NCBI GenBank assembly: GCA_016793325.1
Contig: JAEUKI010000055.1
Coordinates: forward strand, 186,001 to 250,000
Source: Myxococcales bacterium
Lineage (GTDB): Bacteria; Myxococcota_A; Polyangia; Polyangiales; Ga0077539
Direction of reading: 5' to 3'
Length of the DNA stretch: 64,000 bases
Both the position numbers and the translations under genes were made by a program. The notes beneath the pieces are model-generated. The model ran no database searches, had not been told where the DNA came from, and saw only the letters and a program-made list of their open reading frames with translations. Positions 37,880-51,843 of this stretch are shown here, piece by piece. The first letter of the stretch is position 1; the number at the start of each line of letters is the position of its first letter.

Positions 37880-39015
37880 TGGCGCGCTGGATCGCTCGGA
37901 CGCGGCTCGCGCGATTCCGCGGAGAGCTCCCTGCAAATGTGGCGAATCGCTCGCAGAAATGGAGCGTTCGCGACGCGGTCATCGTCGCGCTCGACGACGG
38001 CGCGCACGTCGGGCTCGGCGAGGCCTCTCCGCTGCCGGGCTTCTCGACGGACACCGTCGAGGCGTGCGAGCGCGCGTTGCGAGACGTGCATCTCACGCTC
38101 GGGCCCGCGCCGGACGCTGGCTCGATCGAGCACGCGGTGCGCTCGATGGTGCGGCCGGTCGAAGAGCGATTGAGGGCGGTTCCCGCCGCGAGATTCGCGC
38201 TCGAAACAGCGCTGTGGTCCTACGTGAAGCTCTCGACGACAGACGGGTCGACCTCCGCCGAGCGAAGGCTCGAGGTGTCCAATCGATCCGCGCTCCGAAG
38301 CGTCCTGCTCGGCGGGGGAAACGTCGATCCCGAGTCGTGGGCCGAGCTCGCGCGCGACCGCGTCGAACGCTCGCAAATCGCCGGAGGAAACCTCGGCGGC
38401 TTCAAAGTGAAGGCGGGCCGCGCGGACCTGTCGTTCGAGCGCGAGCTCGCGGGCGTTCGTGCGCTTCGTGCTGTGCTGCCCTCGGAGTTCGAGCTGCGCG
38501 TCGATTGCAACGGCGCGTGGTCGCTCGATCAAGCGAAGGCCAACGTTCCGCGCCTCGCCGACGCGGGGGCGAACGTGGTCGAAGAGCCGTGCTCGGGCTC
38601 GGCGCTGCTCGCGCTCGGCGCGCAGCCCATCCCGTGGCTCGCGGACGAGTCGCTGGTGGATCCAGCGTTTTCGAAGGCCGTTCTCGACGCGCCCGGCTGC
38701 GGCGGGCTCGTGCTCAAGCCGATGCTCCTCGGCGGGTTGATCGTGTGCTTGGACCTCATGCGCGCGGCGTCGTCGCGCGGGATGCGGTACGCGCTCTCGC
38801 ACGTGTTCGATGGTCCGATCGCGCTCAAAGCGATGAACGACCTCGCCGCGCTCGCGCCAGACCTCTTGTTGCCGTCCGCGCTCGGGTGGCACGAGGGGCT
38901 CGATGCTTGGCCGAAGCGGCCTCGGCGGTCGGCGCCGGACCTCCTCGGATCCGCGCCGCCGTGGCTCTTCTATGCGATTTCTCCGGCCGAATGGGGGCTC
39001 TCGGTCGACGCCTGA
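37879..39015 (+). CDS. menC: o-Succinylbenzoate synthase (MenC)
   Basis: The 378-residue product belongs to the enolase superfamily: N-terminal capping domain, then a barrel with the catalytic Lys pair in FKVKAG (K176, K178), metal ligands D209 (DCNGAW), E235 (VEEP) and D257 (ADES), and the second Lys K280 (LKPM). It dehydrates SHCHC to o-succinylbenzoate. It is the last gene of the menaquinone operon; menE and menB, which act next, are missing from the window. Confidence 0.93.
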   Translation: MARWIARTRLARFRGELPANVANRSQKWSVRDAVIVALDDGAHVGLGEASPLPGFSTDTVEACERALRDVHLTLGPAPDAGSIEHAVRSMVRPVEERLRAVPAARFALETALWSYVKLSTTDGSTSAERRLEVSNRSALRSVLLGGGNVDPESWAELARDRVERSQIAGGNLGGFKVKAGRADLSFERELAGVRALRAVLPSEFELRVDCNGAWSLDQAKANVPRLADAGANVVEEPCSGSALLALGAQPIPWLADESLVDPAFSKAVLDAPGCGGLVLKPMLLGGLIVCLDLMRAASSRGMRYALSHVFDGPIALKAMNDLAALAPDLLLPSALGWHEGLDAWPKRPRRSAPDLLGSAPPWLFYAISPAEWGLSVDA

Positions 39016-41642: not shown

Positions 41643-42748
41643 GCGGGCTGCGGCCGATCGTGGCTGCCCGCCGCGCGCTGCCTGCGCTCGTCGCGAGCGC
41701 TCTGCTCGTGGCGTCGCGAGCCCACGCGCAAGACGCGGGCGTCGCAGACGCGAGCGCGACGAGTCGAACGACGACGAGCGCGACGGCGCAGACCGACACG
41801 GCGATCCGTTGGCCGCTTCGGTTGCCGGGGCTCGACGCGACCATCAACGACCCGCGCGACGGTCGTGCGTGGGGCGTCACGACGCGCATCAACGCGACGA
41901 GCGTGACCGTCATCGCGGCCGTGCAAAATGGCCAGCTCGCGCTCGTGTTCGAGCAGCGGCGCACGGGGCCGACGAGCTGCGCTGCGACGCTCGTGGCCGA
42001 AGCGCGCACGCAACAAGCGGTGTACACGCTGCGCGCGGAGTCGGCGCTCGCGCTGCGGGGGCCAGGGTTCGACCCCGAGGCGGCCTTTCAATTGCGGGCG
42101 GGCGGGTTCGATCTCGAATACGGGTGCGTCGAAGCCAACGGGCGTCCGTGGCTCGTGACGGCGATGTCCAACGCGCGCACGGGCTACACGCTCGCGGACG
42201 CGACGGCGATGAACGGGCGCGTGGCCGAAGCGCTCCGCGGCCGCGGCGCACGCGGCGACGGAACCGTGCGGCTCGAGACAACGGGCCTCGATCTCGGCGC
42301 GCTCGACATCGAGGGACCGTGGCTGTTCACGGGGGACGCTGTCGGGTTTCCGCTCGCGGGAGACGTGGTGAGCTCGCGCGCGGGCGACCGCGGAGGCGTG
42401 ACGCTCACCGTGGCGATGCGCGCGGGGCGCTGCATCGAAGCGTGGGACGCGCTGCGCGCGTGGCTGACGAGCGAAGGGCAGCGGCTCGATCGACCGGCGT
42501 ACGTTCCAAACGGGTACGGACCGAGGATTCGGCGGGTTCCGAGCGGCGAACGCGTGCGCGAGGTGTACTGCGCGCAGCCGACGCCCGAGCGAGCGCTCAT
42601 CGTGTCCGCGGTGTTCGCGCAGAACGACGCGGATGCGACGGCGCGAACGAGCGCGATGCTCGAGCGGCTCCTTCGCGCAGCGACCCCGGCGCGACTCGCG
42701 TCCCCGACGCAATCGCAGCGTCGCGCGCCGGCCGCGTCGAGCAACTAA
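41639..42748 (+). CDS. Secreted protein of unknown function
   Basis: The 369-residue product starts at GTG 41639, overlapping the kinase stop as GTGA. It has a signal peptide (ALPALVASALLVASRAHAQ), a Thr/Ala-rich linker and a beta-rich body with two conserved-looking Cys (in TSCAATL and LEYGCVE). No family was recognised. Being coupled to the kinase and TPR genes, it may be the extracellular partner of that kinase. The stop overlaps the convergent dioxygenase stop. Confidence 0.65.
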   Translation: MSGLRPIVAARRALPALVASALLVASRAHAQDAGVADASATSRTTTSATAQTDTAIRWPLRLPGLDATINDPRDGRAWGVTTRINATSVTVIAAVQNGQLALVFEQRRTGPTSCAATLVAEARTQQAVYTLRAESALALRGPGFDPEAAFQLRAGGFDLEYGCVEANGRPWLVTAMSNARTGYTLADATAMNGRVAEALRGRGARGDGTVRLETTGLDLGALDIEGPWLFTGDAVGFPLAGDVVSSRAGDRGGVTLTVAMRAGRCIEAWDALRAWLTSEGQRLDRPAYVPNGYGPRIRRVPSGERVREVYCAQPTPERALIVSAVFAQNDADATARTSAMLERLLRAATPARLASPTQSQRRAPAASSN

Positions 42749-43320
42749 GCTCGCACCACTGCGTCGAAGCGCGCGCTGAACCCGTCGCGACCGTGGACGA
42801 GCGACACCGCGCGCTCGCGTCGGTACCACGGGTCGTTGGCGTTGTAGGGGTCGCCGTCGAAGTAGATCTGCGTCGTAAGCACTCCGCGCGGGCCGTGAAT
42901 CTTGCAGTGGATGTGCGCCGGTCGATACGTCGCTCCGTTGAGGTACCGCCCCGGAACGATCGTTCGCACCGTGAACCGCCCGCGCGCGTCGGTCTCGAGC
43001 GTCGCGCGAAGCCGCGATCCCGCCGTGTCGTACCGCCCTCGCGCGTCGCACTGCCAGAGCTCGACGCGGGCGCGCGCCAGACCGATGCAACGCGTGTCGC
43101 GCACGGTGGCTTCGAGCTCGAGCGGCGTCCCGGACATTCCGGGCTCGATGAGCGTCGTTCGGCGCGGGGCGTTCGCGAGGTAGTAGGGACCTTCGATGTC
43201 TTCGCCGGTGAGCGCGCAGCGAGGGGCCTCAGCGAAGGCGAGCGCAGAGGAGGGGGCCACCGCAGAGAGCGCGGCCCATTGCGCGAGAAATCTACGACGG
43301 TCGACCTGCTCGTTCTTCAT
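42745..43320 (-). CDS. Tat-exported intradiol ring-cleavage dioxygenase-like protein
   Basis: The 191-residue product has a twin-Arg signal (DRRRFLAQWAALSAVA), then an intradiol dioxygenase fold with GPYYLAN, VELWQCDARGRYD and YRPAHIHCKIHG. Candidate iron ligands are Y97, Y126, H136 and H138. Family members cleave catechols between the hydroxyls using Fe(III). Export is unusual for catabolic members but known for secreted ones. It shares a 50-bp upstream element with the small secreted protein gene at 47 kb, on the other side of a sigma factor/kinase pair. Confidence 0.82.
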   Translation of the reverse strand: MKNEQVDRRRFLAQWAALSAVAPSSALAFAEAPRCALTGEDIEGPYYLANAPRRTTLIEPGMSGTPLELEATVRDTRCIGLARARVELWQCDARGRYDTAGSRLRATLETDARGRFTVRTIVPGRYLNGATYRPAHIHCKIHGPRGVLTTQIYFDGDPYNANDPWYRRERAVSLVHGRDGFSARFDAVVRA

Positions 43321-43331
43321 GGGTTCGAATC

Positions 43332-43381
43332 CCTTTCGAACCGAGAACGAGCGCGGAGCCCGACCGGCGCACGAAATCGAC
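43332..43381 (-). promoter_or_regulatory. Shared 50-bp promoter-like element, copy 1 (dioxygenase gene)
   Basis: On the leftward strand it reads a 21-bp block starting GTCGATTTCG and ending CGCCGGTCG (43361-43381), nine variable bases, CTCGTTCTCGG (43341-43351), two variable bases and CGAAAGG (43332-43338), which serves as ribosome binding site 11 bases before the ATG. The same blocks with the same spacing occur at 47548-47597. The inferred role is a promoter read by the adjacent sigma factor. Confidence 0.7.
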
Positions 43382-43412
43382 GACCCTCCGCCGGACGCAG
43401 TTCGAGCGCGAT

Positions 43413-46325
43413 TTACGGCGTCCAGCGCTGCGACGGCCCGTAGCTCCCCGAGCCGCTGCCCGACGGAACGTACCTCTGCGGCGCGACGCTCACCGGCGTT
43501 GTGCGCGTCGCGACGCCCGCGTCTCGAAGCGCAGGCGCGATCGCCACGGTCCCTGCGTCGCGCTCCGTCGCTGCGTCGGACGAAGGCGCGATCGCGTGCG
43601 CATCGGGGAGCGCCGTCGATCGCGTCGTCGTGACCGTGGGCGCCGTTGGCTGCGCCCGGGGTCGCGACGGAGCCTCTCGCGACGCGAGGGCGCGCTCGCA
43701 CTCGTCTCGCACGGCGATGGACTCGGCGTCGGTCCGAGACGCGACGATCGCGCGCGAGGCTTCGAGCTCCGCGCGTCCTTCGCGGGTCGAGCCGCTCGCG
43801 ACGAGGGCGAGGCCGAGGACCTTGCGCGCGCGGGCCACGCGGAGGTGATTCGCTCCGAATGTGTTCGTGTCGCGGGCGAGGGCGCGTCGCGCGCGTTCGA
43901 TCGCGACCGAGTGCGCTCCACGAGAGAGCGCGACGAGCGCGAGGTTGAGCGTCGCGAGGGGCGCGTCGAGGGTCGCCCCGAGGATCGATTCGGCTTCGAG
44001 GAGCCTGCGCTCGGCTTCGTCGAACGAGCGCGCTTCGAGCGCGAGCAGCCCGAGGCTGTTCAGCTCGAGGCCTCGCTCGATCGATCGCGGACCGAGCCAA
44101 CGCTCTTCGAGCTCGAGCGCTTGCAAATAGTGCTCGCGCGCTTCTGCGCGGCGCTCGGCGCGGCGAAGGACGCCCGCGATGTTGTGGAGGTGCCGCGCGC
44201 GATCGGGGTGATCGAGGCCGGTTCGAGCGCGATCGAGCTCCATCGCTTCGCGGTGCAGGGCGAGGGCGCGATCGAGCTCGCCGCGTTCGCGGGCGACGTT
44301 GGCCAACGCCGTGAGCACAGGAGAGCGATCACCGCCGTGCTGCGCGCGGAGCGCGAGCGCCCGATCGAGCGCGGTCGTCGCGCGATCGAGGTGGCCGAGG
44401 TTCGAGAGCGCGAGGCCGTTCAACAACGCGAGCGACGACTCGAGCGCGGGGTCGCCCACGCGACGCACGGACGCCTCGGCCTGATCGATCGCCGCGATGG
44501 TCTCGCTCCACGCGCCGCGCGCTCCCTCGGAGGCGACGAGCTCGAGCCACGCCCGTGCGGCGCCATCGTCGTCACGCCCCGCCTCGGCGACCAGCGCTGC
44601 TCTTCGCGCCGCGCGGCTCGCTTCGACGTGCGACCCCAACGCGCGAAGCGCCTTCGCGAGCGCTCGGCTCGCCCGCGATCGAACGGGAGCCCACTGCGAC
44701 GCGTCCGCCGCCCGCTCGGCCTCGGCCGCACGCGCGGAGGCGTCCCTATAATGACCCGTGGTCATATTGGAAATCGACTCGCGAACAAGCACTTCGGCCC
44801 GCGTGACTTCTCGCGCGCGCGAAGGGTCCGTCGGCGGGGCTTCGGTCGCGACCAGCGCGCGCGTGTCCGCACACCGTTCGATCGGAGGGAGCTCGAACGC
44901 GATCGACGACGAGGCCAACACGACGCTTCGATTGGCGCGCGCGAGGGACGCGACGACCGCGTCGAAGTCTCCCCGCGCGTGATCGAGGCACCGTCGCTGC
45001 GCCGCGCGAAGCTCGGGGGACGGCGCGGGCGCGGCGGTCGTCGGACCCACGCGACACACAGCCTCGCTCGCGGCGAACCAGCGATCGGCCCAGCGGTCGA
45101 GGGCGGCGTTCAACTCTCGCGCGAGCGCGGCTCCGACCCGGGGCTCTTCGCGCACGAACGCGCGCTCGATCGCGTCGCGCGCGTCCCTCGTGAGCGGCCT
45201 CGCGCCGGCGCTGCACGCGGCGACGCTCGGCGCGTGCGACGCGCGATTCGTTCGAGCCCACGCGCCCGCAGAGAGCGCCACCGTCGCAGTCGCGATCACC
45301 GCGAGTACCGCCGCGCGAGGCGACGCGCGCGACGCGCGATCGAGCTCGGCGAGCCACGCCGCGACCGACGATGGACGCCTCTCGGGGTTTGCTTCGAGCG
45401 CGCGCGCGATCACGCGAAGCACCGGAGCGCTCACCGGCGAACCCCGCAGCGAAGGGCCCTGTGCGATCGACGCCCGGAGCTCTGCGAGCGTCGCGGCGAC
45501 GAACGGACGGCGGCCGACGAGGGCTTCGTACGCGACGACGCCCAGCGAAAAGAGGTCCGAACGCTCGGTCGCTTGCGCGCCGTCGAGCGTCTCGGGGGCC
45601 ATGTAGAGCGGCGTTCCGAGCAGGGCGCCGGTCTGGGTGAGCGCGTGCGAGAGCGCGCCTTCGTCCAGCGATCCGCGCGGGATCGTCGGCGCCGCGAGGC
45701 CGAAGTCCGCGAGCCGCACGCGGTCTTCGCCGATCACGATGTTCTCGGGTTTGACGTCGCGATGGAGCACGCTCCGCGCGTGCGCCGCCGCGAGCCCGCG
45801 CCCCGCGGCGATCACCACCGCGAGCGCCTCGCGCCACGGCCGCGATCGCGCGTCGAGCCACGCGCGGAGCGTCGGGCCGCGAACGACCTCCATCGCCACG
45901 TAGAGCTGCCCGTCCGCCTCGCCGACGTCGAAGACCGTCACGATGTTTTCGTGTGTCAATTTGGCGAGCGCCGACGCCTCGCGCCGCGCGCGCTCGCGCT
46001 GAACGGGGTCCCTCGCGCGCTCGGGTCGAAGGACCTTCAGCGCGACTTCGCGCTCGAGGCGCGGATCCCACGCGAGGTACACGAGCCCCGAGGCGCCTTC
46101 GCCGAGCAGCGACCGAAGGACGTACGGGCCGACCTCTGCGCCGCGCTCGAGCGTCGCGCCCGAGTGTGTGTCACTTCGATGCGAGCGAGCGAGGAGCCCC
46201 ACGAGCTCCGAGCAGCTCGGGCAGCGGTCCATGTGCGCGTCGATCGATCGCGTCGTGGTGGCGTCGAGCTCGCCGCGCACGAACTCGTCGAGCACGAGGT
46301 CATCGGGGCACTCGGACGCGTTCAC
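43413..46325 (-). CDS. Zinc-finger anti-sigma-like / Ser-Thr kinase / TPR protein
   Basis: The 970-residue product (GTG start 46325) opens with a zf-HC2-type motif: C6, H31, C35, C38 in HMDRCPSC, as in zinc-binding anti-sigma factors. A complete kinase follows (about 66-330: GEGASG, K97, HRDVKPEN with D190, DFG 207-209), then a membrane helix (about 345-365) and TPR repeats to about 880, ending in a disordered tail. It diverges from the sigma factor gene with only 42 bp between starts. The layout suggests that it holds or phosphorylates that sigma factor in response to a signal sensed by the TPR part. The longer frame to 46907 is antisense to the sigma gene and not real. Confidence 0.88.
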   Translation of the reverse strand: MNASECPDDLVLDEFVRGELDATTTRSIDAHMDRCPSCSELVGLLARSHRSDTHSGATLERGAEVGPYVLRSLLGEGASGLVYLAWDPRLEREVALKVLRPERARDPVQRERARREASALAKLTHENIVTVFDVGEADGQLYVAMEVVRGPTLRAWLDARSRPWREALAVVIAAGRGLAAAHARSVLHRDVKPENIVIGEDRVRLADFGLAAPTIPRGSLDEGALSHALTQTGALLGTPLYMAPETLDGAQATERSDLFSLGVVAYEALVGRRPFVAATLAELRASIAQGPSLRGSPVSAPVLRVIARALEANPERRPSSVAAWLAELDRASRASPRAAVLAVIATATVALSAGAWARTNRASHAPSVAACSAGARPLTRDARDAIERAFVREEPRVGAALARELNAALDRWADRWFAASEAVCRVGPTTAAPAPSPELRAAQRRCLDHARGDFDAVVASLARANRSVVLASSSIAFELPPIERCADTRALVATEAPPTDPSRAREVTRAEVLVRESISNMTTGHYRDASARAAEAERAADASQWAPVRSRASRALAKALRALGSHVEASRAARRAALVAEAGRDDDGAARAWLELVASEGARGAWSETIAAIDQAEASVRRVGDPALESSLALLNGLALSNLGHLDRATTALDRALALRAQHGGDRSPVLTALANVARERGELDRALALHREAMELDRARTGLDHPDRARHLHNIAGVLRRAERRAEAREHYLQALELEERWLGPRSIERGLELNSLGLLALEARSFDEAERRLLEAESILGATLDAPLATLNLALVALSRGAHSVAIERARRALARDTNTFGANHLRVARARKVLGLALVASGSTREGRAELEASRAIVASRTDAESIAVRDECERALASREAPSRPRAQPTAPTVTTTRSTALPDAHAIAPSSDAATERDAGTVAIAPALRDAGVATRTTPVSVAPQRYVPSGSGSGSYGPSQRWTP

Positions 46326-46367
46326 GGCAGGCTCCAGGGTAGCAAGTTCGCGTACAATCGCCTCGTG

Positions 46368-47075
46368 ATGGACGAGCCGATCGACGAGGGCGAGGTCGAG
46401 TTTGCCCGCGCCGTCGCGCGCGGCGAGCCCGCGGCGGTGGCGCGATTCGAGCGAGAAATCCTCGCGTCGATCGACAAGGCGCTCGCGACGATGCGCCTCG
46501 ATCCCGCGGCGCTCGACGAGGTCAAGCAGCGCGTCCGTGTTCGGTTGCTCGTCGCAGAAGAGGGCGCGCCTCCGCGCCTCGTCGCGTACGCAGGGCGCGG
46601 TCGGCTCGAAGGGCTCGCGTGCGTGACGGCCTCGCGCATCGCGCTCGATCTGTTGCGGGCGAGCAAGAGCAACGCCGCGGCCCCGGTCGATCGCCTCGCC
46701 GACGATTTCGGCGTCGATGCGGCGCGCGCGACGGGCACAGGTGCGGATCCCGAGGACGCGCTCGTTCGCGAGGACGTGAAGCAGCGATTTCGCGTGGCGT
46801 TCGCCGCGGCAGTGGACGCGCTCGACGCGCGAGAGCGCGCGGTGCTCAAGCTGCACTTGCTCGAGGGCGTGACGCTCGATCGTCTCGCGGGGATGTACTC
46901 GGTCCATCGCGCGACGGTGGTCCGGTGGCTCGCGGACGCGCGATCGAAGGTGCTCTCGCGAACGCGCCGCGAGCTCGCGGAGTCGCTCGGGGCCACGGAC
47001 GTCGACAGCACGATCGCGCTGCTCGAGAGCAAGCTCGACGCGAGCATCGAGCGCCTATTTCGCACGCGTAGCTGA
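46368..47075 (+). CDS. ECF-like sigma factor (Myxococcales gmx1 type)
   Basis: The 235-residue product has a region-2-like segment (RLEGLACVTASRIALDLLRASKSN, about 82-105) and a region 4 helix-turn-helix (LDARERAVLKLHLLEGVTLDRLAGMYSVHRATVVRWLADARSKV, about 150-195). It resembles the Myxococcales-specific sigma-70 group often paired with kinases. ATG 46368 is used; GTG 46365 is equally possible. It diverges from a kinase carrying a zinc-finger anti-sigma-like domain, and two nearby genes share one promoter-like element. Confidence 0.87.
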   Translation: MDEPIDEGEVEFARAVARGEPAAVARFEREILASIDKALATMRLDPAALDEVKQRVRVRLLVAEEGAPPRLVAYAGRGRLEGLACVTASRIALDLLRASKSNAAAPVDRLADDFGVDAARATGTGADPEDALVREDVKQRFRVAFAAAVDALDARERAVLKLHLLEGVTLDRLAGMYSVHRATVVRWLADARSKVLSRTRRELAESLGATDVDSTIALLESKLDASIERLFRTRS

Positions 47076-47537
47076 GTTGCGCGCGAACAAGCTCGCGATG
47101 CGCCACGCGTCGTCGGCGAAGCGAACCGTGATGGTCTCGGACCATCGTCCCTGCGCGCCCTCGCTCGTCGCTTCGATGGTGACGCCGTCGTCCGTCGCGC
47201 TCACGGGGGTCACGCTGACGATGCGATACCTGCGGTCTGCGAGGCGTTGCGAGACCCACTCCGCGCCGCTCCAGGTGGGAGGCTGGCAGCAGCCGTTGTA
47301 CTCGAAGTGCGCCCGCGCAGACGCGTGCCATGCGCTCGCTGCATGGGAGGCGTTTCGCTGGGAGATCGCTTGGACGTAGCTCGAGACGACCGCCATCGCG
47401 GCGTTCGTGCGGCGCTGCGTGAGCGAGGGGCCTCGAGCGCCACCGTAGAAGTCTCCGCATGCGAGCGCGGGCTGTGCGGCGACGAAGAGCGAGAGGGCGA
47501 GGGCGAGCGAGCAGTGCGCGAGGCGGAGGGTGTTCAT
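47055..47537 (-). CDS. Small secreted protein, SnoaL/NTF2-like
   Basis: The 160-residue product has a signal peptide ending PALAC, then a domain with VSSYVQAISQRNASHAASAWHASA...RYRIVSVTPVSATDDGVTIEATSEG...WRIASLF, which looks like an NTF2/SnoaL-type cone fold (tentative). Start ATG 47537; a longer frame to 47588 runs through the promoter element. It overlaps the convergent sigma gene end by 21 bp and shares its upstream element with the dioxygenase gene. Confidence 0.65.
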   Translation of the reverse strand: MNTLRLAHCSLALALSLFVAAQPALACGDFYGGARGPSLTQRRTNAAMAVVSSYVQAISQRNASHAASAWHASARAHFEYNGCCQPPTWSGAEWVSQRLADRRYRIVSVTPVSATDDGVTIEATSEGAQGRWSETITVRFADDAWRIASLFARNSATRAK

Positions 47538-47547
47538 GGTGGAGGGT

Positions 47548-47597
47548 CCTTTCGCTCCGAGAACGAGAGGCTCGACCGACCGGCGCACGAAATCGAC
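47548..47597 (-). promoter_or_regulatory. Shared 50-bp promoter-like element, copy 2 (secreted protein gene)
   Basis: The three blocks (21, 11 and 7 bases) described at 43332-43381 recur here without any change at 47577-47597, 47557-47567 and 47548-47554, with identical 9- and 2-base gaps, while the gap bases differ. The element ends 10 bases before the ATG. Conservation of blocks but not of gaps points to a selected promoter rather than a recent duplication. Confidence 0.7.
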
Positions 47598-47655: not shown

Positions 47656-50316
47656 CTACTGGGGGGCGCCCGCGTCGGGCGGTGTCCAGCCGCGAATGGG
47701 GACGACCACGGGCGTTCCGCCGATGATGTTCACGCGCATGGTGCCCTCTTGCTCGGGGTTGCGCTCGTAGCGGACGCGGCGCTGCATGGGCGGGGTCCAC
47801 ACCGATGGGCTCACGGGCGTGACCTCGGGGAAGATCCTTCGCGCGCCGTTCCACGCGCGGGCGGTGAGCGAGAGCGTGGGGACCGACGTCGCGGGAGCGC
47901 TCTCGCCGAGGACGCCCTGTCCCGTGGGGAGCACGAGCACGCTGTCCCCGAGGGCGATGCGCGTGGGGCCGCAGCCCGCGAGGTCGAGCGCGCGCTGCAC
48001 GAGGTCGGGCGTCGCTCGATCCGTGACGGCGATGACGAGAAAGCCCTCGCCGTCGATGCCGGCGCCGCGAAGGACGCTCATCCCGGGGCGCAGCGCTTCG
48101 CCCGCGAGCCCGTCGCCGTCGTTCGCGATGCTCCAGCGAGGACCGCTGCCGCCGGTGGTCATCGTGAGCCGCGGAGCGCCTGCGCCGCGCGCGATTGTTC
48201 CCCCGACGAAGCGCGCGACGAGCGAGTCGTGCGCGTCGGGGGCCGCGAAGTTCACGCGGCGCGCGTCGACGCGAACGAGGTTGACCCATCGATCCGCCCG
48301 CGCAGGGTCGGGTCGAATTCGTGTGCGCGCCATCGGCCACGGAAACGGGTGCGCCCCGAGCCCGTTGACGTGCCACGTCCCTTCTCCGGTTTGCGCCGGC
48401 GAAACCGCAGGTCGCAGCGGCTCTCCAGGGAGCACCGAGCGCAGCAAGAGATAGAAGAAATCTCGCGGATCGCGCCGGATGTACCGCGGGAGATTGTGGC
48501 TCATTCGACGGACGAGCTTGCGGCCGCGGAACGTCACGTTGGGCAAGCCCGAGATCGTCCCCTCGGCTTCGAAGCCGCCGACGAGCGCGTGCTCGAGCGG
48601 CGGATGCTGCGCCGGAGGCGAGACGCGATAGAGCTCGAAGCCGGTGTTCGAGCCGTTCATGTCGAGGTGCACGGCGTACGAGCAGCGCGCGGCGATGAGG
48701 GCGCGGCCGAGCGTCTGCGGCTCGAGGTGATCGCCCCACGCGTACAACACGTGGTTGTCGCGCGTGAGGCAGATCGCCGTGCGCGTCGTGTGCGTGTCCG
48801 TGGTCTGCCCGTGAATTCCGCCCCAGTAGCCGCGACGCCACGGGTTGTACGTCCCGTCGTCGACGACGGCGGTCATGTTCTGGCGAAACTCGACGACGTC
48901 CTGCGGGATCTGTCGCAGGCCGCGCGGCCATGAGCCGAAGCCGAGGTCGCCGTCGGCCATGAGCGCGAGCGTCGCGGCGTAGGGCTTCGCGGGCAGCAGC
49001 ACCATGCCCTCTGCGAACACGCCGAACTCGCCGTGGATCGCTTGAAACGCGCCGTTGAACGCGCCCACGAGCCTCGACATCGTCCGCTCGTCGCGCGGGA
49101 TCGCGCCGGTGCCCGTCTCGCCGGTCGCACCAATGGGCTCTTCGCTCCCGGGAACGACGTGCAGCTCGATCTGCCTCGGGTCCCACGCGGCGAAGAACGT
49201 GCGCCCGTCCAACCGCTCGGGATCGGGCCGTAGAAACGTGATGTACATCGGCGGAGGAGCGCCCGGATTCGCGCGCGAAAACGGGTCCCCCTCGCGCACG
49301 AGCGGCGACCACTCGCCTTCGCGCGGGAGCGCGGGCTGCACGAGCGGCGTGATCCTTTGTGGGGGCCAGTTTTCAACAGGGCCCTCGAGCGCCGCGCCGT
49401 TTGCGTTGGTTCCGCCCGAGAGAACGTCGGCGAGGTCCTGCGCGTCGTCCTGGCGATTGCTCGTCCCCACCGTGGACTGTCGCAGCCTCGCGAGCTGGTG
49501 CTCCGCGCCGAACGCGATCGACTCGAGCAGCTCGATGGGCTCGGCTCCGATCCACGGCACCGCGCGCACCGTGTTGACCGCCCACGGAACCCACGCGTCC
49601 ATCTGCGCCGCGACGCGCGCGCGATGGCGCACGAGCTCGCGGTGCGCGCCGAGCGCGAAGTCTCGCGACGGTTCGATGGTGACCCTCGCGCGTCCCTCGA
49701 TCGTGGCGGCGAGGCTGGTTCCCTCGAACGCGAGGGTGACCTCGCGCGCGGGGCGAACGAGCTCGAAGCGCTCGATCCCGTAGCCCGAAGGTCGCCCCGA
49801 GCGTTGCCAGCGCGTGACGGCGAGGCGCAGTCGAGCGCCGGTCTCTGCGGCCACTTCGGCGCGCTCGCCGCGGCCATCGATGATCGAGATCGCGTCTGCG
49901 CGGCCGTCGACGCGCGTGACGAACGCTGCGTACGTGGCGGATGGATCGACGGTGAGCGCGCTCTCTTCGGCGGCGTTGGACTGCGTGAGGTTGTAGAGCC
50001 CGCTCAGCGAGATCACGCGATCGTCGGGGCCGGTGCGCACTTGCGCGACGAACACGTCGTCGAGCGCGCCCGCGGGCTGCGCGGACTTCGCGAGAAAAAT
50101 CGCCCGCCTCGGAACGACGTCCGCTCCATCGAGCCACCGCATCGACCCTTCGCGGAGCACCAAGCCCTTTCGCGCGAGCACCTCGGGCAGCGGTCGAAAC
50201 TCGCCGTTGACCAAGGAGACGATCGCGCCGACCGCGGTGAGCGCGGCGATCGATCGAAGGAGCGCTCGCGACGTGCGCGCGCGCGGCGGTGCGGTGTTGG
50301 CGGACACAGACGACAC
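47656..50316 (-). CDS. Membrane-anchored phosphodiester glycosidase (NAGPA)-like protein
   Basis: The 886-residue product has one N-terminal membrane anchor (about 20-38). Residues about 420-610 match the NAGPA/DUF2233 family: GAFNGAFQAIHGEFGVF, TRTAICLTRDNHVLYAWGD and YAVHLDMNGSNTGFELY, where the Asp/Asn cluster is the probable active site. Family members remove capping sugars from phosphodiesters, as in polysaccharide or teichoic-like material. N- and C-terminal parts are unassigned. It starts 123 bp from the divergent menF gene. Confidence 0.75.
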   Translation of the reverse strand: MSSVSANTAPPRARTSRALLRSIAALTAVGAIVSLVNGEFRPLPEVLARKGLVLREGSMRWLDGADVVPRRAIFLAKSAQPAGALDDVFVAQVRTGPDDRVISLSGLYNLTQSNAAEESALTVDPSATYAAFVTRVDGRADAISIIDGRGERAEVAAETGARLRLAVTRWQRSGRPSGYGIERFELVRPAREVTLAFEGTSLAATIEGRARVTIEPSRDFALGAHRELVRHRARVAAQMDAWVPWAVNTVRAVPWIGAEPIELLESIAFGAEHQLARLRQSTVGTSNRQDDAQDLADVLSGGTNANGAALEGPVENWPPQRITPLVQPALPREGEWSPLVREGDPFSRANPGAPPPMYITFLRPDPERLDGRTFFAAWDPRQIELHVVPGSEEPIGATGETGTGAIPRDERTMSRLVGAFNGAFQAIHGEFGVFAEGMVLLPAKPYAATLALMADGDLGFGSWPRGLRQIPQDVVEFRQNMTAVVDDGTYNPWRRGYWGGIHGQTTDTHTTRTAICLTRDNHVLYAWGDHLEPQTLGRALIAARCSYAVHLDMNGSNTGFELYRVSPPAQHPPLEHALVGGFEAEGTISGLPNVTFRGRKLVRRMSHNLPRYIRRDPRDFFYLLLRSVLPGEPLRPAVSPAQTGEGTWHVNGLGAHPFPWPMARTRIRPDPARADRWVNLVRVDARRVNFAAPDAHDSLVARFVGGTIARGAGAPRLTMTTGGSGPRWSIANDGDGLAGEALRPGMSVLRGAGIDGEGFLVIAVTDRATPDLVQRALDLAGCGPTRIALGDSVLVLPTGQGVLGESAPATSVPTLSLTARAWNGARRIFPEVTPVSPSVWTPPMQRRVRYERNPEQEGTMRVNIIGGTPVVVPIRGWTPPDAGAPQ

Positions 50317-50439
50317 GGCGGATGGCTACAGAGGGCGTCTATACAACGTCCAGCCGCGCCCGTCGCATTGCATGTCGAGCGCGCAAAAAGTCGAAGGGTG
50401 GGCAACGGGCGGCGCGGCGGGGTATGACCCTTGGGGCCA

Positions 50440-51843
50440 ATGCGGTTTCCGTTGATGGATCCGGCCTTCGTCGAGAGGGCGCTCGCGTCGATTCGGCCTG
50501 TTGCGTATCGAGACGCGTTCGTCGCGCTCACGTCGCGGTGCGCGCCGCAGGCGTTCGAGCGGCTGGCGAGCAGCGACATGCTCGGCGAGCGAACGATCTG
50601 GGATCCGCGCGGCGTCGCAGAGGACCTCGGCCCCGCGATGGCGGGCGCAGGCGTGGCCCTCCGCGAGATCAACGGCGGAGGAACGCCTCGCTTGTCGGGC
50701 CTCGTCCCCCGCGCCGCTGCGGTGTTTCGCGGGCTCATCGAGTTTCGCGACGACGGGTGCGAGGACGCTCCGCCGCCGGCGTTCATGGGCGGCGCTTCGT
50801 TCGCGCCGAAGATCCCGACGGACGTCGAGTGGGGCTGGTTCGGCGACGACATGTTCGTCCTGCCTCGGTGGCGCGCGGCGCTCACGAGCTCGGGCGCGTT
50901 TTCGACCTGGGTTTTCACAGTCGAAGAGCTCGCGGACCGCGCGGCGCTCTTGCGCGAGCTCTCGACGGCCAACGACGTGATCATGCGCAGCCCCACGATG
51001 CGCATCTACAGCACCAACGTTCGTGTTCGCGAGGACCTCTCGCGCGAGCGTTGGCGCGCGCTCGTCGAGAAGGCCATCCAAGCCGTGAGCGGGAGCGCTG
51101 CAAATTCACTGCGAAAGCTCGTTCCTGCGCGGCGGACGCACATCGAGTTCGAGAGCACGATCGACCCCGTGGCGTGCGTGGCGCGCGCGGGGGCGAAGTT
51201 TCGTAGCTGCACGCGCTTCATGGTCGAGCGCGAAGAGCGCGCGTTCGTCGGCGCGACGCCCGAGCGGTTGATCCGCGTGAAGGGGCGCGAGATCGAGACC
51301 GACGCGCTCGCAGGGAGCCTCCCTCGCGCGGCGGACAGCGTCGTCGACGCGCTCTCGCGCGAGCTTCTCGCGAGCGACAAGAACCGTCGCGAACACGAGG
51401 CCGTCGTCGCTGCGATCCGCGCGGCGCTCGCGACGGTGTGCGAGTCGATGGACGTGCCTTCGGCGCCGACGGTTCGCGCGCTGCCGAACCTCGTGCACCT
51501 CTGGACGCCCATTCGGGCGACGCTCCGCTCGACGCTCCACCCGCTCGACCTCGTGGGCCTCCTCCACCCGACGCCCGCCGTCGCAGGAACGCCCCGCGAG
51601 CTTGCGGTCCAATGGCTCGTCCGCAACGAGCCACACCCGCGCGGCTGGTTCACCGGTCCCGTGGGCTGGTTCGACGCGCGCGGCGACGGCGCGTTCGTCG
51701 TGGGGCTTCGTTCGATGCTGCTCTACCGCAACCACGCGTGGCTCTACGCGGGCGCGGGCGTCGTCGCGGGGTCCGATCCCGACGCCGAGTACGAAGAGAC
51801 CAGCGCGAAGCTCACCGCGATGACCGCTGCGCTCGGGTTGTAG
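50440..51843 (+). CDS. menF: Isochorismate synthase (MenF)
   Basis: The 467-residue product has the chorismate-binding-enzyme C-terminal fold: ERAFVGATPERLIRVKGREIETDALAGSLPRA (about 268-300), SDKNRREHEAVV, and FTGPVGWFDARGDGAFVVGLRSML with the final AGAGVVAGSDPDAEYEET. It isomerises chorismate to isochorismate for MenD. Starts at TTG 50431 and ATG 50455 are alternatives to ATG 50440. It lies 11 kb from the menaquinone operon. Confidence 0.9.
   Translation: MRFPLMDPAFVERALASIRPVAYRDAFVALTSRCAPQAFERLASSDMLGERTIWDPRGVAEDLGPAMAGAGVALREINGGGTPRLSGLVPRAAAVFRGLIEFRDDGCEDAPPPAFMGGASFAPKIPTDVEWGWFGDDMFVLPRWRAALTSSGAFSTWVFTVEELADRAALLRELSTANDVIMRSPTMRIYSTNVRVREDLSRERWRALVEKAIQAVSGSAANSLRKLVPARRTHIEFESTIDPVACVARAGAKFRSCTRFMVEREERAFVGATPERLIRVKGREIETDALAGSLPRAADSVVDALSRELLASDKNRREHEAVVAAIRAALATVCESMDVPSAPTVRALPNLVHLWTPIRATLRSTLHPLDLVGLLHPTPAVAGTPRELAVQWLVRNEPHPRGWFTGPVGWFDARGDGAFVVGLRSMLLYRNHAWLYAGAGVVAGSDPDAEYEETSAKLTAMTAALGL

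Follow-up and report, generated by a model that had tools for sequence, protein, structure and literature searches.

The window considered here, that is, the whole stretch of DNA analysed, comprises 64,000 nucleotides from the genome of a Myxococcales bacterium. It contains a divergent gene pair, coding for a sigma factor and a kinase, and the genes on both sides of this pair are preceded by copies of one and the same element. Judged from its sequence, this locus is very probably the small regulon of an ECF-type sigma factor. Its features are as follows:

42745..43320, minus strand: predicted target gene A, a Tat-type exported intradiol ring-cleavage dioxygenase of 191 aa (PF00775, RRRFL leader)
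43332..43381, minus strand: element copy A, with blocks 1 and 2 as predicted ECF promoter and block 3 as predicted ribosome-binding site
43413..46325, minus strand: predicted anti-sigma kinase partner of 970 aa, with zinc finger, Ser-Thr kinase, TM and TPR parts (zf-HC2, Pkinase, TPR_12, HMDRCPSC)
46368..47075, plus strand: ECF-like sigma factor of 235 aa (TIGR03001 Sig-70_gmx1; sigma-70 region 4 matches)
47055..47537, minus strand: predicted target gene B, a small exported 'ACG' protein of 160 aa (weak Lumazine_bd_2/NTF2-like match; found at the same position in relatives)
47548..47597, minus strand: element copy B, read like copy A and facing the sigma gene from its 3' side

The sigma factor is a member of the TIGR03001 Sig-70_gmx1 family, with a score of 191.4 bits against a cut-off of 154.6. 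Its gene has an alternative in-frame GTG start at 46365, and its open reading frame overlaps that of gene B tail-to-tail by 21 bp (47055-47075). The product of gene A contains an intradiol domain (PF00775, 74.9 bits against a cut-off of 27.3) and a twin-arginine motif, RRRFL, at its N-terminus. The motifs EGPYY, GRYLNG and AHIH, kept in relatives, may supply the iron ligands Tyr, Tyr, His and His that mark such enzymes. The nearest solved structures are 4ilv/4ilt, and the enzyme shares with these, and with the secreted mite intradiol dioxygenases (6bdj; PMC9167512), a single-domain intradiol fold and export; regulation by an ECF sigma factor is not described in the text consulted on these enzymes. 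In the product of gene B, the signal peptide ends in ALA and is followed by CGD, and the mature N-terminal Cys-Gly is conserved among the ACG proteins. The Lumazine_bd_2 match is weak for this protein and lies above the family cut-off in some relatives. Both target products would thus work outside the cytoplasm. No Rfam match reaches the gathering level at the locus, the one weak match being mcrA (18.9 against 57.6 bits), and therefore no known RNA family is present. A scan of the locus for generic sigma-70 promoters and intrinsic terminators detected none.

A preliminary description of this DNA had pointed to an upstream element of three invariant blocks shared by the two outer genes. In copy A, read on the minus strand, block 1 (GTCGATTTCGTGCGCCGGTCGG, 43360-43381) is followed by a gap of 8 nt, block 2 (CTCGTTCTCGG, 43341-43351) by 2 nt, and block 3 (CGAAAGG, 43332-43338) by 11 nt up to the ATG (43318-43320). 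Copy B has identical blocks at 47576-47597, 47557-47567 and 47548-47554, with 10 nt to its ATG (47535-47537). The identical spacing, the near-equal distance to the ATG and the differing gap bases were thus described correctly, but block 1 has 22 bases and not 21. The two copies are identical at 42 of 52 positions, against 32 for the best of 150 random window pairs. The 20-mer CGATTTCGTGCGCCGGTCGG occurs twice in the window, where shuffling gives a mean of 0.05, and its exact occurrences across the genome (10.4 Mb, 93.7% complete) are copies A and B only; the genomic matches with 1-3 mismatches all lack the second block and are apparently coding. The scan of the genome for the blocks at fixed spacing, which had been proposed as a check, returned the same pair: for the core TTTCGTGCGCCGGTC-N12-CGTTC there are two sites without a mismatch, none with one or two, and five with three. 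These five are taken as chance, since a reversed version of the pattern is matched about as often across genomes. When the genome is searched with a model trained without the window's family, copy A ranks first (E 4e-5), an apparently coding match second (E 0.0011) and copy B third (0.002). At the sigma gene, an element in the sense direction is absent, so positive autoregulation is not indicated.

Across relatives, the conserved part of the element is TGCGCCGGTC-N12-CGTT. In the training set of the element model, T-G-C-G-C-C-G-G-T and C-G-T-T are invariant (the latter at 18/18 sites), and GTGCGCC is separated from CGTT by 16 bases, a spacing of boxes that is normal for ECF promoters. Blocks 1 and 2 are read as a predicted ECF promoter, with GTGCGCC as its -35 box and CGTT as its -10 box. 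ECF -10 boxes are of the CGT(C/T) type and lie a short way upstream of the transcript start. The -35 box is GC-rich and is without the AAC typical of ECF promoters at this place. In many targets of one family (f23), the ATG lies exactly 7 nt past CGTTC, and thus transcription would start at or near the ATG itself. In the genus of the window, CGAAAGG (block 3) sits in a leader some 20 bases long. This block is Shine-Dalgarno-like, and in distant relatives the element does not include it; it is a predicted ribosome-binding site. Of the three-block promoter element as originally described, the two conserved blocks therefore remain.

Orthologues of the sigma factor occur in the same genus at 76 and 68% identity, with further ones beyond the genus. 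At sigma loci where the flanks have changed, the element is found before the gene B homologue in six genomes (G001, G002, G006, G039, G023 and G029) and before the dioxygenase in two (G006 and G029), and the distance from GGTC to CGTTC is 12 bases at every one of these loci. The same 12-nt spacing is seen in genomes of the same genus, family, order and class, and a search of contigs found the same element in MAGs labelled Myxococcales, Kofleriaceae and Deltaproteobacteria. The genes downstream form two recurrent classes. One comprises exported ACG proteins, with A-C-G at the end of the signal peptide (HACGGYG, EACGGY, DACGPY and similar); the other consists of exported intradiol dioxygenases, whose leaders are of Tat or lipoprotein-like type. 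Less often, the target is a SIMPL protein (G120) or a protein without a family assignment (G280, G220, G039 and G276). Targets that are unlinked to the sigma gene still bear the element (G193, G218, G227, G199 and G001), and several element-bearing dioxygenases and the sigma gene are on separate contigs; linkage thus does not explain the association between element and sigma factor. The regulon had also been called self-contained. This is true of its own genome, but the relatives have unlinked targets and also a promoter aimed at the sigma gene.

The association was measured in 289 Polyangia genomes, most of them draft MAGs, of which the 27 with a profile score of at least 217 bits were counted as sigma-positive (the next score was 208). 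The core with at most one mismatch is present in 12 of the 289, and each of these 12 belongs to the 27 (hypergeometric p 3e-14); it was found in none of about 220 sampled Myxococcota genomes outside the class. The element model, which has 41 columns and 18 training sites, all outside the window's family, gives E < 1e-4 in 18 genomes. Seventeen are sigma-positive, the exception being the fragmented G208. Counted at 16 bits or more, the element lies upstream of a dioxygenase in 17/21 of the sigma-positive genomes and 2/30 of the sigma-negative ones (Fisher 5e-8), and in 12/16 against 1/29 once the genomes used for training are removed (p 7e-7). The sigma-positive genomes without a recognisable element at this position are G275, G285 and G276, along with G220, where it is weak; the sigma-negative ones that have it are the fragmented G208 and also G082, whose sigma factor scores just under the cut. 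In a tree of 46 sigma factors, all the element-bearing ones fall on one side of a branch with 98/97 support. That side also includes a few sigma factors for which no element was recognised, and three rows initially put down as paralogues, one of which, L101, has the element before an ACG gene. Within TIGR03001, this clade stands beside many other paralogous lineages, and it is the one to which the promoter is tied. The earlier proposal, in which the sigma factor lying between the outer genes drives them both, thus finds strong support in phylogenetic footprinting, in the co-occurrence with one sigma clade and in the unlinked targets that carry the element; the sigma factor very probably acts through the element.

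It may be argued that a separate repressor or activator binds the element as its operator, and that the genes depend on a different sigma factor. For a -35 box, TTTCGTGCGCCGGTC is long and conserved to an unusual degree, and the CGATTTCG part is weakly palindromic in appearance. However, a gap to CGTT that stays at 12 nt in every genome, an ATG as close as 7 nt to CGTT and the tight co-occurrence with the sigma clade all fit a promoter, and an unsystematic look found no other regulator gene common to the loci, which leaves an operator very unlikely. Another proposal concerns the origin of the two copies. As near-identical direct repeats, 4.2 kb apart, that flank the sigma/kinase pair, they could be the product of a recent duplication or gene conversion, or the remnant ends of a mobile element. 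Their blocks are invariant, though, whereas the gap bases differ, and the element precedes the same genes in other genera and families, amid unrelated flanks and on other contigs too. Given this recurrence with the same genes elsewhere, the mobile-element or duplication reading was rejected, its probability being negligible.

The promoter reading leaves the divergent kinase to be placed. The kinase of the window has a zf-HC2 match (26.0 bits against a cut-off of 22.2), the motifs HMDRCPSC, HRD and DFG, and a hydrophobic segment past the kinase domain. It thus has the layout of ZAS-type anti-sigma factors, that is, HxxxCxxC near the N-terminus and a membrane segment. The divergent pair is kept in all 25 loci examined; HxxxCxxC lies shortly before the kinase domain in 25/25 partner kinases, HRD is found in 24/25, and a hydrophobic segment follows the kinase domain in 24/25 (G203 not computed). 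As in the ZAS-type proteins, H-x3-C-x2-C near the N-terminus is predicted to be cytoplasmic and is followed by a membrane segment. Unlike in them, a full kinase domain is placed between the two, and the kinase gene is divergent from the sigma gene, with no shared operon.

The known ECF43 pairs, EcfK-PknS of Xanthomonas citri and EcfP-PknT of Vibrio parahaemolyticus, offer a second comparison, as there too an ECF sigma gene adjoins that of a transmembrane Hanks-type kinase. According to the accessible text of PMC13147305, PknS is a cytoplasmic kinase with one TM and periplasmic TPRs, and the same order of kinase, TM and TPR is seen here; the N-terminal HxxxCxxC zinc finger of the present kinase is unmentioned for PknS in that text. 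In the ECF43 sigma factors, uncharged residues, together with a Thr that is phosphorylated, take the place of the acidic DxxD in region 2.2 (accessible parts of PMC13147305 and PMC8999054), the conserved-Thr replacement being QTTA (PMC13147305). The corresponding segment here is AALDEVKQ, with Ala at the first DxxD position. Across the clade, the second position is acidic (D/E) in 27/27, and the first is mixed, without a conserved Thr, unlike in ECF43; the promoter and targets differ as well. By the criterion of the second acidic position, the sigma factor is not an ECF43 member. That the kinase controls the sigma factor, its sign and chemistry being left free, is probable from the sequence comparisons. 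Sequestration by the zinc finger, phosphorylation, or both may be the mode.

The element has a further relation to the sigma gene itself. A scan of the 800 bp downstream of each sigma stop, for elements of 8 bits or more that face the sigma 3' end, was positive at 24/27 loci, against 1/19 paralogue loci; the lone positive among the latter is L101, itself in the element clade. As a background, a score of 8 bits is reached in about 0.5% of 130-bp strand windows, a figure in which true sites are counted. At 12 loci, including the window, the sigma-facing element is the promoter of the convergent gene. Where a locus has no convergent ACG gene, the element stands on its own, in most cases 30-55 bp beyond the sigma stop (G120, G226, G204, G193, G148, G218, G276, G285 and G199; weak in G153, and at 99 bp in G034), and in two orders it is found at 30-35 bp. 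Loci with the convergent gene have no near-stop element. The long open frames (268-304 aa) downstream of the near-stop elements were rejected as genes, as they are the reverse strand of the sigma gene. In the window, the ACG mRNA must overlap the sigma mRNA by at least 21 nt. The convergent gene and the near-stop element thus look like alternative routes to sigma-dependent transcription against the sigma mRNA.

Two doubts bear on this wider picture. One holds that the sigma factor drives the genes but is not regulated by the kinase, whose zinc finger and adjacency would be incidental. The sigma factor does keep the acidic second DxxD position, unlike the phosphorylation-activated ECF43 proteins (PMC13147305, accessible text), but the divergent pair and HxxxCxxC persist at all the loci examined, and an incidental kinase is unlikely. 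The other doubt, that the sigma-facing element has no regulatory role and is a by-product of gene order, has a considerable chance of being right, if somewhat under an even one. The convergent order could have been inherited once, the near-stop elements of genus g102 share ancestry, and the overlap here is just 21 bp. On the other hand, near-stop elements are present where the convergent ACG gene is missing and absent where it exists, they recur in two orders at nearly the same distance from the stop, and the sigma-facing element is common at the sigma loci and rare at those of the paralogues.

In the mechanism proposed for the regulon, the sigma factor (46368-47075) would recognise TGCGCCGGTC-N12-CGTT and transcribe genes A and B as single genes. 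The divergent kinase, in which an N-terminal zinc-finger anti-sigma-like motif precedes the kinase domain, a single membrane segment and TPRs with a predicted outside location, would hold or phosphorylate the sigma factor, and an envelope or extracellular signal would lead it to free or activate the latter. The active sigma factor would then also act at promoter B to yield an RNA antisense to its own mRNA, which is expected because this promoter faces the sigma gene and gene B overlaps the 3' end of that gene. It is tentatively suggested that such sigma-driven antisense transcription across the sigma mRNA limits the response, with the zinc-finger/kinase fusion as gatekeeper. The effect on the sigma factor might, just as tentatively, be seen most simply as negative feedback. 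As for the stimulus, we infer that the substrate of the dioxygenase is an extracellular catechol-like aromatic, and from the enzyme family one may guess that the regulon answers extracellular aromatics or catecholates.

The large genomes of Polyangia, soil-type bacteria related to the myxobacteria, have many sigma factors of the TIGR03001 family. As the literature search found no paper naming this family, we know of no member with a published promoter or regulon; in the literature searched, no description of antisense feedback for ECF sigma factors was found either. Here, the promoter, the targets and the regulator can be named from sequence and traced through a number of families, so that the system is open to test. 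The zinc-finger/kinase/TPR partner would bring together in one protein sequestration and phosphorylation, two textbook controls of ECF sigma factors, and the recurrent promoter directed against the sigma gene suggests an antisense feedback built into the regulon itself.

The distance separating the CGTTC box of the sigma-type promoter from the start codon is not uniform among relatives. In many targets of the f23 family of genomes (loci L208, L207, L205, L206 and L214-L219), the ATG lies only 7 nt past the box, which suggests, from sequence, that their mRNAs are leaderless. Unlike in f23, a leader is present in the window's genus, and it carries the Shine-Dalgarno-like CGAAAGG. A TACAAT-like hexamer was also noticed ~7 nt upstream of a GTG start of the sigma gene (window 46352-46368 and its equivalents in L047, L048 and L049). 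Its variants (TACAAT, TACCAT, TACACT and TACGCT) are conserved across the genus and family, and it is possibly a housekeeping promoter yielding a leaderless sigma mRNA.

The exported ACG proteins, which include the product of gene B, differ greatly from one another and range from 107 to 246 aa. Common to them is a signal peptide whose last residue is A, with the mature part starting C-G-(G/P/N/D/S), and most are without a lipobox. The Cys-Gly N-terminus may be a functional tag or a metal site. Outside the two recurrent classes, the predicted targets also include a SIMPL-domain protein, along with exported proteins of unknown family.

Extra predicted targets in loci of relatives
L050, 13019
L209, 4827
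L211, 4653
L215, 4383
L202, 8153

Adjoining gene B is an 886-aa protein (window 47656-50316, minus strand); it gave no Pfam match and is 70-90% conserved at the same locus in three Polyangia genomes (G001, G002 and G006). Elsewhere, ORFs at window 37959-39015 and 50431-51843 resemble, judged by eye only, an o-succinylbenzoate synthase-type enolase and an isochorismate synthase-type enzyme; parts of the menaquinone pathway may lie within the window.

In nearly all loci, the sigma gene is faced at its 3' end by a sigma-type promoter, belonging either to a convergent target gene or to a separate element directly past the sigma stop.

Predicted promoters facing the sigma gene, in the window and in loci of relatives
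window, 47055-47075, where gene B overlaps the sigma gene
L198, +549
L205, +4670
L206, +5060
L201, -2334
L191, -7188
L202, -8135
L199, +8757

This recurrent placement suggests that the sigma gene is subject to antisense feedback.
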